Origin: Psychroflexus halocasei
GTDB taxonomy: Bacteria; Bacteroidota; Bacteroidia; Flavobacteriales; Flavobacteriaceae
Assembly (NCBI RefSeq): GCF_900107595.1
Contig: NZ_FNQF01000002.1
Span: forward strand, 1 to 64,000
Reading direction: 5' to 3'
Length of the DNA stretch: 64,000 nt
The position numbers were made by a program, and so were the translations under genes. Each line of letters opens with the position of its first letter. Positions within the stretch are counted from its first letter, which is position 1. Of this stretch, positions 34,097 to 48,758 are shown in pieces. The notes below the pieces were generated by a model. The model saw only the letters and a list, made by a program, of their open reading frames with translations. It searched no databases and had not been told where the DNA came from.

Positions 34097-34125
34097 TTGA
34101 TTTTTAAAAATCAATTTTATATTTG
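34097..34125 (+). promoter_or_regulatory. trp operon promoter
   Basis: TTG at 34097-34099, an 18-base spacer and TATATTTG at 34118-34125 fit the flavobacterial TTG-N17-23-TAnnTTTG consensus exactly. The leader-peptide ATG begins only six bases after the -7 element, so the transcript may be leaderless or nearly so. Confidence 0.75.
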
Positions 34126-34130
34126 CACGT

Positions 34131-34187
34131 ATGTTTAATAATTCAATAAATACTTGGTGGTGGTTACATTTACGTCAAACGTCGTGA
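34131..34187 (+). CDS. trpL: trp leader peptide
   Basis: An 18-codon reading frame encoding MFNNSINTWWWLHLRQTS, with three adjacent Trp codons at 34155-34163. It ends 31 bases before a strong terminator and 88 bases before trpE. This is the arrangement of a transcription-attenuation leader: when charged tRNA-Trp is short the ribosome stalls on the Trp codons, and when it is plentiful the ribosome reaches the stop at 34185. The frame is too short to be meaningful by length alone; the run of Trp codons, the promoter before it and the terminator after it are what support it. Confidence 0.9.
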   Translation: MFNNSINTWWWLHLRQTS

Positions 34188-34217
34188 ACCACATCCCTAT
34201 TGTATTATTTTACATTC

Positions 34218-34250
34218 AAAAAAGGCTTGTCTCACGACAAGCCTTTTTTT
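34218..34250 (+). terminator. trp attenuator terminator
   Basis: A 14-bp stem (34218-34231 with 34236-34249) with a TCAC loop and T run, between trpL and trpE. The segment GTCGTGA at the leader stop (34181-34187) is perfectly complementary to TCACGAC at 34232-34238, covering the loop and start of the 3' arm, and could act as an antiterminator. GTGGTT (34160-34165) can pair with AACCAC (34187-34192) as the competing structure. Confidence 0.85.
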
Positions 34251-40716: not shown

Positions 40717-41113
40717 GGGGTCGATTTGGTTTTGACAGCAAGACCAATTGAATAGTAAGCACGTCGAGCGCTGGGATATAGCTCGTAAATATCATATTTC
40801 AACCTTTTTAAACGGCGATAATAATTACGCCTTAGCTGCATAATCCGAATTACAGTAGGATAATGCTTCACCATTACAAGGTAATGGGCTAAGATGTCTC
40901 TGGAAAGCCCTGATTTATGGCGTTCCATCAAGAGGCACCGGTAAAGTAAATCTAGGTTTCATGACACCTTTAAGTGAAACTGAAATTATAAAGGTTAAGG
41001 ATAACTTAGGTGGTTTTCAGCCAGAGTTATCTCGAAAACTCAAGAGAAAACTAAACGTGTAGAAAGTTTTTGAATTGCTTGTTTGGACGGGAGTTCGAGT
41101 CTCCCCGACTCCA
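40717..41113 (+). ncRNA. ssrA: Transfer-messenger RNA (tmRNA)
   Basis: The 5' end GGGGTCG pairs with CGACTCC at the 3' end to form the tRNA-like acceptor stem, and GGGAGTTCGAGTCTCCC gives the T arm. The tag frame at 40814-40843 reads GDNNYALAA and stop, matching the flavobacterial GENNYALAA type. CCA is not encoded after the discriminator A, so it must be added. With SmpB it rescues stalled ribosomes and tags the unfinished protein for proteolysis. The exact 5' and 3' ends are set by the acceptor pairing. Confidence 0.95.
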
Positions 41114-41117
41114 CAAA

Positions 41118-45179: not shown

Positions 45180-46047
45180 ATGTCAAAATTTCATCTGATC
45201 ATTCTACTTCTCATCTTGCCAATCAGCTTATATTCTCTAAACAACCTGACAAAATTGATAGTCTTCAGGAACCTTTATTCAAGCCTTTTATAGAAAGATA
45301 TATTCTTGATGAAATAAAGAGTTTAAGACAAGAAAACCTGGAGCTAAAAGCAAATCTCACAAAGCAAATCTCACAAAGCAAATCGCCGAAGCTAAACTTG
45401 AATCATCTGATAGAGCTGTCAACTATACCACTAGCACCATCAACAATATTTTTTATATCATCACTGCTGCTGCCTCTCTATTACTTCTTGTAGGTTGGCG
45501 ATCTTTAAATGACATTAAAAAAAGTCTGAAAATTGATATGTCTAAAAAAACTGAAAACATTATCGCTCAATATGAGAGACGCTTACAGCAAATTGAAAAT
45601 AAAATGACCGAGCGCTCTAAGGTGATTATTGAAACTCAACAAAATATTACGAATACAAACTCCATTCATTCTTTATGGATGCGCGCAGGACTTGAAAAAA
45701 GTGAAGAGGATAAAATTACAGTTTACGACGAAATCCTGAGTATCAACCCCAATGATATTGAAGCCATGACTTATAAAGCCGATGCTTTGCTAGAAATCGG
45801 TGAAGTGCGTTGGGCTTTAGATCTTTCAAACACAGCGATTGAACTAGATAATAATTACGCGCTTGCTTATTGGCAACGTGCTTGCGCTTATGCTAAATTA
45901 GAAAAACAAGCTGAAGCTTTATCTGATATTAAAAAAGCAATTGAACTTTCTGATACACTTGAAGATGAATTACTCAACGAAAGTCATTTTGAGAATTTAC
46001 AGAATAATGCTTCTTTCAAAAAGTTAATTTCTCATTATAAAAGCTAA
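45180..46047 (+). pseudogene. Exported coiled-coil/membrane/TPR protein, doubly frameshifted
   Basis: An ATG at 45180 gives a good signal peptide (FHLIILLLILPISLYS). The frame then fails around 45235-45240; removing two bases gives QPDKIDSLQEPLFKPFIE and a coiled coil up to ENLELKANLTKQ. There an exact 14-bp tandem duplication (45350-45377) shifts the frame again; with one copy the protein continues IAEAKLESSDRAVN, a membrane helix (IFYIITAAASLLLLVGW) and then, in frame, the intact part from 45538: a coiled coil and two or three TPR units (IEAMTYKADALLEIGEVRWAL, ALAYWQRACAYAKLEK). Only this C-terminal part (45538-46047, 169 residues) is open today. Function unknown. Confidence 0.75.
45350..45384. 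repeat. Exact 14-bp tandem duplication plus partial third copy
   Basis: GCAAATCTCACAAA occurs at 45350-45363 and 45364-45377, followed by a 7-base partial copy. It shifts the frame of the TPR gene; one copy fewer restores it. Confidence 0.9.
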
Positions 46048-46074
46048 GCTCATCATTTAATTCATTTTTTTTTA

Positions 46075-46082
46075 TAAGTTTG
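46075..46082 (+). promoter_or_regulatory. Candidate -7 element of the asnA leader
   Basis: TAAGTTTG fits TAnnTTTG and ends seven bases before the first Asn-rich leader peptide. A -33 TTG at the right spacing is not evident. The distance to the ATG implies a leaderless or nearly leaderless transcript, as for trpL. Confidence 0.5.
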
Positions 46083-46089
46083 TAGTTCT

Positions 46090-46167
46090 ATGACACATAT
46101 TTTAAATCATATCTTCAATCTTAACTTGAATAATAATCGATTCAAGAACAGGAAGATCATGCTTTAG
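46090..46167 (+). CDS. asnA leader peptide 1 (Asn-rich)
   Basis: A 25-codon frame beginning MTHILNHIFNLNLNNNRF. Seven of 25 residues are Asn, with three Asn codons in a row at 46129-46137 and a further one at 46147. Its last codons include GGAAGATC (46151-46158), which nearly duplicates the 3' arm of the following terminator and can pair with its 5' arm. A ribosome stalled on the Asn codons would leave this segment free to form an antiterminator; one reaching the stop at 46165 would cover it. This is the geometry of an asparagine attenuator, and the gene it precedes makes asparagine. Confidence 0.8.
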   Translation: MTHILNHIFNLNLNNNRFKNRKIML

Positions 46168-46190
46168 AAATAATATATTTTCAAATTTCA

Positions 46191-46229
46191 AAAAAGGTCT
46201 TCTACATTTCAGAAGATCTTTTTTTTTTT
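46191..46229 (+). terminator. asnA attenuator terminator 1
   Basis: GGTCTTCT (46196-46203) pairs with AGAAGATC (46211-46218), extended by A/T pairs, loop ACATTTC, followed by a run of T. The alternative partner of the 5' arm is GGAAGATC at 46151-46158 in leader 1. Confidence 0.85.
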
Positions 46230-46245
46230 GCTTAAAACTCAACAA

Positions 46246-46293
46246 ATGATTCACATTAATATCAATACAAATAATAATAACTCTCCACCTTAA
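46246..46293 (+). CDS. asnA leader peptide 2 (Asn-rich)
   Basis: A 15-codon frame encoding MIHINININTNNNNSPP with the exact order M-I-H-I-N-I-N-T-N-N-N-N-S-P-P. Six residues are Asn, four of them consecutive (46270-46281). It starts 16 bases after terminator 1. Right after its stop lies GCAGGC (46294-46299), complementary to the 5' arm of terminator 2. A ribosome on the Asn codons leaves GCAGGC free, whereas one at the stop covers it. It is thus a second, independent asparagine attenuator in series with the first. Confidence 0.85.
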   Translation: MIHININTNNNNSPP

Positions 46294-46318
46294 GCAGGCG
46301 AAAATCTCCCTATGTGTT

Positions 46319-46345
46319 AAGCCTGCCGTTGTGTAGGCTTTTTTT
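46319..46345 (+). terminator. asnA attenuator terminator 2
   Basis: AAGCCTGC (46319-46326) pairs with GTAGGCTT (46333-46340) around CGTTGT, followed by seven T. GCCTGC in the 5' arm can instead pair with GCAGGC at 46294-46299, which mimics the GTAGGC of the 3' arm. Confidence 0.85.
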
Positions 46346-46368
46346 ATGTCAGAAATTTAAAATTAAAA

Positions 46369-47376
46369 ATGATGAAAACAGAAATATTAAAAATTGAAGA
46401 AGCGATTAGCTTCACAAAACAAACTTTAGAAACAGAACTCAAAAAACAACTTGAGTTAACAAGAGTATCTGCACCTATTGCAGTGATGAACGATACAGGC
46501 GTAAACGATGATTTAAGCGGCGTAGAAAGATCTGTTGTATTCCCAGTTAAATCTTTAAAAGACAAAAAAGCTGTGATTGTTAACTCACTTGCTAAATGGA
46601 AAAAAATAAGGCTTAAAGAACTCGAAGTCAGCGAAAACAAAGGAATCTTCACAGACATGCGTGCCATCAGACCAGATGAAGATTATAGCCATATCCATTC
46701 AATATATGTTGATCAATGGGACTGGGAAAAAAGAATTTCAGACGCTTCAAGAAGTTTAGAATATCTCAAAACAGAAGTCAAGAAAATCTATGCGTCGCTA
46801 AAAAACACTGAAGAAAAAATACATCTTCATTACCCAGACATATCTCCTATTTTACCTGAAGAAATCACTTTTATTCATTCAGAAGAATTGCTTCAAATGT
46901 ATCCTACATTATCACCTAAACAACGTGAATATGAAATTACAAAAAAGTTTAAAGCTGTATTTTTAATTGGAATTGGCAAAGCATTAAGCAACACAAAAAG
47001 TCATGATCACAGAGCGCCAGATTATGACGATTGGATTACAAAAAACGAAGATGGTTATTACGGTTTAAACGGTGATATTTTATTGTGGAACCCGATGACG
47101 CAAAACAGCTTTGAAATTTCATCGATGGGAATTCGCGTTGATAAATCAACTTTAATGAAACAGCTTCAAGTCACTGATCAGCTGCATAAACAAAGTTTGT
47201 TTTACCATCAATTATTGCTCAGTGATGAATTGCCAGAAAGTATTGGCGGCGGTATTGGTCAGTCGAGAATGTGTATGTTTTTGCTCAGAAAAAGACATAT
47301 CGGTGAGGTACAAGTTGGCATTTGGCCCGATAAAATGAGAGCTGAATGTGCCCAAAACGGAATTCATCTTTTATAA
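46369..47376 (+). CDS. asnA: Aspartate-ammonia ligase (asparagine synthetase A)
   Basis: A 335-residue class II synthetase-like enzyme that makes asparagine from aspartate, ammonia and ATP. Markers are LTRVSAPIAVMNDTGVNDDLSG, FTDMRAIRPDE, IHSIYVDQWDWEK, the class II motif 2-like LLWNPMTQNSFEISSMGIRVD and the motif 3-like ESIGGGIGQSRMCMFLLRK. Length fits AsnA (about 330). Two ATGs stand in tandem at 46369. In enterobacteria asnA is controlled by AsnC; here the leader holds two Asn-rich peptides and two terminators, so control is probably by transcription attenuation in response to charged tRNA-Asn. Confidence 0.96.
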   Translation: MMKTEILKIEEAISFTKQTLETELKKQLELTRVSAPIAVMNDTGVNDDLSGVERSVVFPVKSLKDKKAVIVNSLAKWKKIRLKELEVSENKGIFTDMRAIRPDEDYSHIHSIYVDQWDWEKRISDASRSLEYLKTEVKKIYASLKNTEEKIHLHYPDISPILPEEITFIHSEELLQMYPTLSPKQREYEITKKFKAVFLIGIGKALSNTKSHDHRAPDYDDWITKNEDGYYGLNGDILLWNPMTQNSFEISSMGIRVDKSTLMKQLQVTDQLHKQSLFYHQLLLSDELPESIGGGIGQSRMCMFLLRKRHIGEVQVGIWPDKMRAECAQNGIHLL

Positions 47377-47498: not shown

Positions 47499-48758
47499 AT
47501 GGATTACGATAGAATAAAAGAAAAGCTTAATATACTCGCTGATGCTGCAAAATATGATGTTTCATGTTCGAGCAGTGGCAGCAACAGAAAGAACAAAAAC
47601 GGACTCGGGAACTCTAGCGGAACTGGTATTTGTCATAGTTATACACCCGATGGTCGTTGTATTTCTTTACTTAAAATTTTATTGACTAATCATTGTATTT
47701 ATGATTGTGCTTATTGTGTCACGCGTAAAAGTAACGATATCAAACGTGCTGCTTTTAAAGTTCAGGAAGTTGTTGACTTGACGATTAATTTTTACAGAAG
47801 AAACTTTATCGAGGGTTTGTTTTTAAGCTCTGGTATTTTTAAAAGTCCAGATCACACAATGGAAAGATTAATTCGTGTCGCTAAAAAACTTAGAGAAGAA
47901 GAGAGTTTTAATGGCTACATTCATCTGAAATCAATTCCTGGTGCTAGTGATGAATTAATGTACGAGGCTGGTTTATATGCCGACAGACTCTCAGTAAATA
48001 TTGAAATTCCGACACGTGAAGGTTTAAAACTTTTAGCACCAGATAAAGACAGAAAAGACTTTTTAAAGCCAATGAAGAAAGTCCGAAATGAAATTGATAA
48101 ATATAAATCAGAAAAGAAAATCATTAAAAGCACGCCAACCTACGCACCTGCTGGACAAAGTACACAAATGATTGTTGGCGCCACTCAGGAAACGGATGCT
48201 GAAGTGATGTACACGGCAACTTATTTATACAAAAAATATAATATGAAACGTGTTTATTACTCTGGCTACATTCCTATTTCTTACGACAGCAGATTGCCAG
48301 CCATTGGAACTGAAGTTCCAATGATGCGCGAAAATAGACTTTACCAAACTGATTGGCTGTTGAGGTTTTATGGCTTTTCAATAGAAGAATTACTCAATAA
48401 AGAACATCCGAATTTAGAAAGTGACATCGATCCGAAATTGAGTTGGGCTTTAAGAAATCTACACCTCTTCCCTATTGATATTAACAAAGCTGATAAACAA
48501 CTTTTAGCTAGAGTACCAGGATTAGGGATGAAATCGGTTTATAAAATATTGAGTGGCAGACGCTACAGAAAATTGGGTTGGGAACATCTTAAAAAAATGG
48601 GTGTTGCGCTTAATAGGTCAAAATATTTCATCACTTGTAGTTCACGTTATTTTGAGACTAAAGATTATACGCCTCAACAAATCAAACAACGCATTTTGTC
48701 TGAAGGTCATAGCAAATATCAAAAAACGCTTTCAAATCAACTTAACCTTTTTGGATGA
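47499..48758 (+). CDS. Radical SAM protein linked to DNA modification/repair
   Basis: A 419-residue radical SAM enzyme. The cluster-binding motif is NHCIYDCAYC (CxxxCxxC) near residue 65, preceded by GICHSYTPDGRCISLLKILL. Near the C-terminus a helix-hairpin-helix region (LLARVPGLGMKSVYKILSGRR) suggests contact with DNA. This is the family described as putative DNA modification/repair radical SAM protein, found with a partner like the next gene; the reaction is not established. TATTTTTG at 47477-47484 is a good -7 element. The end overlaps the next gene by 4 bases (ATGA). Confidence 0.88.
   Translation: MDYDRIKEKLNILADAAKYDVSCSSSGSNRKNKNGLGNSSGTGICHSYTPDGRCISLLKILLTNHCIYDCAYCVTRKSNDIKRAAFKVQEVVDLTINFYRRNFIEGLFLSSGIFKSPDHTMERLIRVAKKLREEESFNGYIHLKSIPGASDELMYEAGLYADRLSVNIEIPTREGLKLLAPDKDRKDFLKPMKKVRNEIDKYKSEKKIIKSTPTYAPAGQSTQMIVGATQETDAEVMYTATYLYKKYNMKRVYYSGYIPISYDSRLPAIGTEVPMMRENRLYQTDWLLRFYGFSIEELLNKEHPNLESDIDPKLSWALRNLHLFPIDINKADKQLLARVPGLGMKSVYKILSGRRYRKLGWEHLKKMGVALNRSKYFITCSSRYFETKDYTPQQIKQRILSEGHSKYQKTLSNQLNLFG

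Follow-up and report, generated by a model that had tools for sequence, protein, structure and literature searches.

The classical leader-peptide attenuators are those of trp, his, leu, thr and ilv. Asparagine synthesis is known to be regulated by asparagine T-box leaders in Firmicutes and by AsnC in enterobacteria. These two systems rely on direct tRNA binding and on a protein regulator, respectively, whereas in the case described here a translated leader would play this role. Analysis of the asnA gene of Psychroflexus halocasei and of its relatives makes it highly probable that asnA is controlled by two ribosome-mediated transcription attenuators in series, both sensing charged tRNA-Asn.

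The gene lies in a window of 64 kb, which is the whole stretch of DNA that was analyzed. Two units, referred to below as gate 1 and gate 2, follow each other in the region between a TPR-protein gene and asnA, with the following elements.

45538-46047, same strand as asnA: TPR-protein gene upstream of the asnA leader region.
46075..46082, + strand: promoter -7-like element TAAGTTTG, 15 nt upstream of leader 1 (consensus TAnnTTTG).
46090..46167, + strand: leader 1, MTHILNHIFNLNLNNNRFKNRKIML, 25 codons of which 7 are Asn.
46125..46146, + strand: predicted hairpin H1, 7 pairs, spanning the last Asn run of leader 1.
46151..46158, + strand: putative antiterminator strand A1, GGAAGATC, within codons 21-23 of leader 1; pairs with 46196-46203.
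46190..46229, + strand: predicted terminator 1 with its T run; 14-pair stem at 46190-46224, 5' arm core 46196-46203, 3' arm core 46211-46218.
46246..46293, + strand: leader 2, MIHININTNNNNSPP, 15 codons of which 6 are Asn; Pro-Pro codons at 46285-46290.
46294..46299, + strand: putative antiterminator strand A2, GCAGGC, directly 3' of the leader 2 stop codon; pairs with 46321-46326.
46319..46345, + strand: predicted terminator 2 with its T run; stem at 46319-46340, 5' arm core 46321-46326, 3' arm core 46333-46338.
46369..47376, + strand: asnA, the regulated gene (aspartate--ammonia ligase, 335 aa; TIGR00669 equivalog, 389.4 bits for a cut-off of 292.8).

A preliminary description of this region had named the -7-like box, two Asn-rich frames, two terminators and two strands nearly copying the terminator 3' arms as the parts of a tandem asparagine attenuator. 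All were located in the sequence, and the coordinates were right. In leader 1 of the window, A1 lies only 2 nt downstream of the last Asn codon and 14 nt downstream of the end of the main Asn run. Each unit contains a stem followed by a T run between the leader and the next element, i.e. a predicted intrinsic terminator. The stem of terminator 1 was calculated at -13.8 kcal/mol (z -4.78) and that of terminator 2 at -10.7 kcal/mol (z -4.35); none of 200 shuffles was as good in either case.

The P. halocasei genome encodes an AsnRS (asnS, 588 bits for a cut-off of 342.6), and no genome match to AsnB (Asn_synthase) exceeded the Pfam cut-off (best score 20.2, cut-off 21). Therefore, AsnA is probably the sole asparagine synthetase of this genome. 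Charging of tRNA-Asn would track free asparagine. Directly 3' of asnA, at 47499-48758, lies a gene for a putative DNA modification/repair radical SAM protein (TIGR03916, 667 bits).

The proposed mechanism would proceed as follows. A single transcript would start near 46087, leaving a 5' UTR just a few bases long, and would run through both gates. In gate 1, a ribosome would translate leader 1. When Asn-tRNA is plentiful, this ribosome would reach the end of the leader and cover A1; the two arms of terminator 1 would then pair and transcription would stop. When Asn-tRNA is short, the ribosome would stall on the Asn codons, and the free A1 would pair with the 5' arm of terminator 1, allowing RNA polymerase to pass. 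Leader 2, A2 and terminator 2 would repeat the same test immediately downstream. The asnA mRNA would be made only by polymerases passing both gates, so leak should multiply down and the response should sharpen. The parts, their order, their co-variation and the lack of a recognizable second promoter, on which this scheme is built, come from the sequence and its comparison with relatives, and from them we infer a response to asparagine.

The occurrence of the gates was assayed upstream of asnA in relatives. The gene is sparse, with matches in 2 of 27 genomes at genus level, 23 of 299 at family level, 11 of 346 at order level and 17 of 345 at phylum level (own genome counted); three of the 11 matches in the order were weak and partial and were left out. 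The asnA set comprised 127 loci, namely those from these genome searches, the best 80 of 591 named contig loci, and three found via the gate-2 model described below. At least 330 nt of upstream sequence were available for 122 loci, which formed the sample for gate counts; this number probably counts one locus twice, as L008 and L116 have identical AsnA proteins and are apparently one sequence in two collections. In this sample, which includes the best 80 of the 591 named loci, both gates were found at 13 loci, gate 1 only at 9, and a single gate-2-type unit only at 3 (L086, L087 and L122, the last assigned by judgement). No gate was detected by the criteria used at the remaining 97, where leaders were sought with an Asn-density window and by eye, and where a few may have been missed. 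Since 97 of 122 loci carry no gates, asnA does not need this system; it can do without attenuators.

Conservation of the Asn-rich frames and stems in relatives, the lack of which the preliminary description had named as a refutation, was thus observed, with both frames and both terminators before asnA in the 13 tandem loci. These come from several families: L001 (the window), L003 (Mesonia), L034 (a Bacteroidales MAG), L082, L084, L085, L088, L090, L105, L108, L159, L160 and L171. Three of them (L159, L160 and L171) were found via the gate-2 model, hence selected for gate 2, and without them the tandems number 10 of 119. The other asnA of the genus of the window, at L082, still has both gates, although its AsnA is only 53% identical. 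The loci with gate 1 only are those of Hymenobacter and relatives (L002, L004-L007, L113 and L114), L083 and L106. Enrichment in Asn codons is kept in all 22 gate-1 and 16 gate-2 leaders. A GC-rich single Asn leader starting from GTG, MNANLNSNLNLNANNNAMTAGG, with a strong antiterminator and a terminator, was observed upstream of asnA in a genome of the same phylum (L122, reverse complement); this leader suggests that the device is old or was repeatedly invented.

The TAnnTTTG consensus is placed at -12 to -5 in PMC9723704. In raw counts, it was found at most 70 nt upstream of leader 1 in 10 of the 13 tandems, and upstream of leader 2 in none of the 13, with this one consensus scored. Among single-gate loci, also in raw counts, it precedes 2 of the 3 gate-2-type leaders (L086 and L087, not L122) and 1 of the 9 gate-1-only leaders. 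The distance from the T run of terminator 1 to the start of leader 2 is 3-25 nt in the tandems. Because of this short gap, and because the consensus lies before leader 1 and not before leader 2, probably no polymerase reads gate 2 without having passed gate 1.

In each unit, a strand close to the leader end offers an alternative partner for the 5' arm of the terminator, as had been proposed from the near-copies of the 3' arms. Taken alone, the pairings of the window are modest (p ~0.050-0.057 for gate 1 and ~0.019-0.032 for gate 2, with strand limits slightly varied), and the strength of the case for these putative antiterminators comes from the relatives, not from the window alone. Shuffling of the upstream strand gave p <= 0.05 for the pairing in 21 of 22 gate-1 and 10 of 16 gate-2 units, so that the pairing was individually non-significant in 1 and 6 units, respectively. 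Pairing within a locus was also better than pairing between strands swapped among loci: for the 22 gate-1 units as for the 16 gate-2 units, 0 of 20000 permutations reached the observed total (kinship uncorrected). The near-copy strands, present in both units of the window, therefore co-vary with the terminator arms in relatives.

At the terminator bases that can pair both ways, the antiterminator strand is identical to the 3' arm at 284 of 327 positions, with letters differing between loci. For example, the gate-2 strand reads GCAGGC in the window, GAAACGAGC in L082 and GTGAACGGT in L108. RNAalifold analysis of 20 gate-1 sequences revealed two-sided changes at 8 of 10 terminator 1 pairs, with at most 5 of the 20 sequences broken at single pairs; with 8 gate-2 sequences, such changes were found at 3 of 10 terminator 2 pairs. 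The antiterminator strand and both terminator arms thus appear to change together across loci. The last Asn codon precedes the antiterminator strand by a median of ~11 nt in gate 1 (range 0-16) and 13.5 nt in gate 2 (range 1-17). A ribosome stalled on Asn codons would leave the strand free, and a ribosome at the leader end would cover it; this spacing is what stalled-ribosome control needs.

When folding was begun at the antiterminator strand, the antiterminator won at equilibrium in only 1 of 22 gate-1 and 2 of 16 gate-2 units. Equilibrium folding as a proof of switching was therefore negative, the terminator being favored, and any switch would have to operate kinetically. A gate 2 that stands open by default in the untranslated state was not supported either, since the terminator wins 14 of 16 folds.

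The two gates differ in other features. In the 22 gate-1 leaders, a hairpin around the last Asn codons folds with a summed MFE of -154.3 kcal/mol, compared to a null mean of -75.7 kcal/mol, and none of 300 shuffle sets folds as well. No such hairpin was detected around the last Asn codons of gate-2 leaders, for which 238 of 300 shuffle sets fold as well. The gate-1 hairpin is present in the RNAalifold consensus of 14 sequences and not in that of 20 sequences, where the alignment is looser. In several leaders (e.g. L002, L004, L006, L007 and L160) the fold extends into the start of A1. Segment 1:2 of the trp attenuator likewise reaches into the antiterminator strand. It is possible that H1 is a pause or segment-1 element.

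Conversely, a Pro-Pro motif follows the Asn run in 10 of 16 gate-2 leaders versus 0 of 22 gate-1 leaders (Fisher p 1.7e-5, kinship uncorrected). Pro-Pro-stop ends the gate-2 leaders of the window, L082 and L160, and the third bases of the gate-2 Pro codons vary. Leader 2 of L088 and of L090 lacks a stop codon ahead of the terminator and carries Pro-Pro-Pro-Gly-Gly near the usual place of the stop. A hairpin between the Pro codons and A2 was considered as a reason for Pro-Pro at the RNA level and was not supported, as 228 of 300 shuffle sets fold equally well. Consecutive prolines are described to slow ribosomes, and EF-P to relieve this slowing (PMC4176338, PMC5021804). The Pro-Pro motif might therefore park the ribosome over A2. 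Tentatively, and with more doubt than confidence, the two gates may be different machines in series: the hairpin of gate 1 would hold RNA polymerase, and the slow Pro-Pro spot of gate 2 would hold the ribosome with A2 covered, so that the terminator closes unless an Asn stall has occurred earlier. The same tentative model would make serial attenuation by one amino acid a wider Bacteroidota design, also used for Cys/Met, giving a steep multiplicative response without a repressor.

The Pro-Pro motif might also mean that true asparagine sensing is confined to gate 1, and that gate 2 responds chiefly to another signal such as the speed of Pro-Pro translation (EF-P activity, proline supply). The leader would then be a two-signal leader like that of mgtCBR, described as a tandem of one gate for ATP and one for proline (PMC3641672). 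This is possible but unlikely, as Asn content is similar in the two gates (98 of 296 codons in gate-2 leaders, 157 of 524 in gate-1 leaders), 6 of the 16 gate-2 leaders have no Pro-Pro, and L086 and L087 carry gate 2 alone, without Pro-Pro, before asnA.

A phylogenetic tree was computed for 99 of the 127 AsnA proteins (28 were thinned out). A single clade (31 rows, support 96/93) contains 23 of the 25 attenuated loci, alongside 8 rows labelled as carrying no gate, one of them (L013) being a cut-off sequence. L159 and L171 fall outside this clade. Tandem and single-gate loci are interleaved, and well-supported branches force at least 5 changes of the tandem state. Several branches are long, and placements such as those of L122, L108 and L034 are unsure. 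Some tandems are sister rows (L088/L090, L082/L108, L084/L085 and L159/L171), and the statistics given here are uncorrected for this kinship. Gain or loss of single gates and transfer of asnA together with its leader both fit the tree. The single-gate loci (9 with just gate 1, 3 with just a gate-2-type unit) indicate that one gate can suffice, and one gate of the pair could be a redundant relic while the other does all the work. We consider this unlikely, because the 13 loci that keep both gates are spread over the AsnA tree, each gate with an Asn-rich frame and a terminator.

The frames could also encode functional small proteins, or the terminated leaders could be trans-acting small RNAs, attenuation being secondary. 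There is a precedent in Sinorhizobium, where the trp leader peptide is described to act in trans (PMC7298713). Here this is very unlikely, as the peptides look poorly conserved by eye beyond Asn, a short C-terminal motif and the bases involved in RNA pairing.

Whether the pair exceeds chance was assessed in the window itself. Both strands were scanned for Asn-rich frames, defined as frames starting with ATG, 10-40 codons long, in which Asn occurs at least 6 times and makes up 25% or more of the codons. Exactly two frames in the 64 kb satisfy this definition, namely leaders 1 and 2, each followed by its terminator. Among 3000 dinucleotide shuffles of 46050-46368, four contained one such frame, none contained two, and none contained a frame followed by a terminator. 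A terminator scan of 45900-46500 on both strands gave 4 sites (terminators 1 and 2, and two on the minus strand), for a shuffle mean of 0.2. A chance origin, from low-complexity AAT repeats in AT-rich intergenic DNA and ordinary terminators of the upstream gene, can practically be dismissed: the AT-richness of the region and the frequency of AAT codons in DNA of this kind would favor it, but these shuffles, the recurrence of at least one gate before asnA at 24 other loci (Hymenobacter included) and the strand-swap permutations for both gates contradict it.

No Rfam family matched the asn leaders, either in the window at gathering score or in a relaxed scan of 46050-46400. A T-box was rejected on the same two scans. 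By E-value, the best match below threshold was RyhB (24 bits for a gathering score of 55), which is implausible. The window also contains a tmRNA gene at 40717-41116 (RF00023). A distant search of a plasmid collection with the leader DNA gave no match.

Covariance models of gate 1 (R1) and gate 2 (R2) were used for scans that, unlike the retrieval of most loci above, did not go through asnA. In the genome of P. halocasei, each model gave one match at E <= 0.01 with Infernal's stricter filters, both before asnA. At the same threshold, R1 matched in 53 of 246 genomes of the order and R2 in 4 of 335 genomes of the class; at E <= 0.05, R2 matched in 9 of 36, 5 of 46 and 3 of 88 genomes of three families. 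Thirty R1 matches were examined as loci (L128-L157): 2 are asnA loci, 13 were analyzed as leaders for other amino acids, and the other 15 were checked only for correctly oriented Asn-rich frames. In the R2 scans, L158-L160, L171 and L175 are asnA loci, and the 15 other loci (L161-L170, L172-L174, L176 and L177) had no leader by the criterion used; the one Asn-rich frame, in L163, was rejected as a leader, because it is the tail of a frame longer than 480 codons. When 99 of the loci L002-L127 were searched with both models using cmsearch, none of those classified as without gates matched at E <= 0.01. Gate 2 of L082 scores poorly under R2 (E 0.047).

The clearly Asn-rich leaders among the examined model matches all precede asnA (L128, L129, L159, L160, L171 and L175). 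There is a counterpoint to this rule: in two genomes of one genus, a gene other than asnA is preceded by a leader-like frame with 5 Asn in 28 codons, together with a terminator and, close to the frame end, a matching strand (L139:1489-1640, and L137 in reverse complement). Downstream of the L139 frame, this gene encodes 125 aa and has no Pfam match.

R1 also finds leaders of the same layout for Thr, Ile and Cys/Met in the order, and the genes that follow, assigned by eye, are mostly those of the corresponding pathways. Thr-rich leaders such as MIFTTTTTISTTTTINSCRKVCL, with a single terminator, were observed before an aspartokinase-like gene (by eye) in one genus (L130-L134). Ile leaders precede ilvA- and ilvD-like genes, also identified by eye, at L135, L136, L140, L146 and L151, and Cys/Met leaders were found at L138, L141 and L145. 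These 13 loci are a selection from the 28 that are not asnA loci; 11 of them carry a single gate, and the remaining 2, both from flavobacteria, carry a serial pair. Pro-Pro is absent from the leaders of all 13. The first of the two tandems consists of two Cys-rich leaders before a tetrapyrrole methylase gene (PF00590; L145:1553-1875, pairing p 0.002 and 0.006). In the second, Met/Cys leaders stand in series before an EamA transporter gene (PF00892; L138, reverse complement 1513-1813, p 0.020 and 0.126). Given these two Cys/Met tandems, serial attenuation by the same signal is probably not confined to asnA.

Altogether, asparagine would extend the list of amino acids apparently sensed by translated leaders. 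The results suggest that two sensors for the same amino acid can be stacked by a cell on a single RNA, and that the pair can be kept over long evolutionary times, single gates being gained or lost as modules. Because related asnA genes carry single- or double-gate versions in nature, these variants allow a direct test of the benefit of a second attenuator (lower leak, steeper response or a different threshold). The Pro-Pro ending suggests that attenuation has another means of timing the ribosome. For annotation, the pair of gates would mark asparagine-controlled genes matched by no Rfam family here.

Several described systems share part of this organization. The window itself contains, at 34111-34231, a Bacteroid-trp leader (RF01692, 66.8 bits) with the peptide MFNNSINTWWWLHLRQTS (identified by eye) and one terminator, before a trpE-like gene. 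This is the sole match of the RF01692 model in the window, and the model has no match at asnA. Like the asnA leader, the Bacteroid-trp leader combines a leader peptide and a terminator; unlike it, it has a single gate. The leader RNA of Salmonella mgtCBR is described to contain a pair of leader frames and a pair of attenuators (PMC3641672), as proposed for asnA. However, mgtCBR responds to two different signals, ATP and proline, through stem-loops unlike intrinsic terminators (PMC3641672), whereas both asnA leaders are Asn-rich and their terminators look intrinsic. E. coli tnaC is described to respond to high free tryptophan (PMC8092293), whereas the signal of asnA would be scarce charged tRNA-Asn. 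Two tandem terminators are also found in the leader of rimP in Gammaproteobacteria, as for asnA, and the excerpted text of that report mentions no leader peptide (PMC2965389). Among the open-licence papers listed, we found no report of an asparagine leader-peptide attenuator, nor of two leader attenuators for the same amino acid in series.

Like the classical attenuators, the asnA system has a short leader in which codons for the end product abound, a putative antiterminator strand near the leader end, a predicted intrinsic terminator and a biosynthetic target gene. It differs from them in that it would sense asparagine, in its two complete units in series, and in gate 2, which has no detectable hairpin over the regulatory codons. 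By those defining features that sequence can reveal, the asnA leader thus appears to be a case of leader-peptide attenuation, with no pause hairpin seen in gate 2. What would be novel with regard to known attenuators is asparagine as the amino acid putatively sensed, together with the stacking of two different units on one leader.
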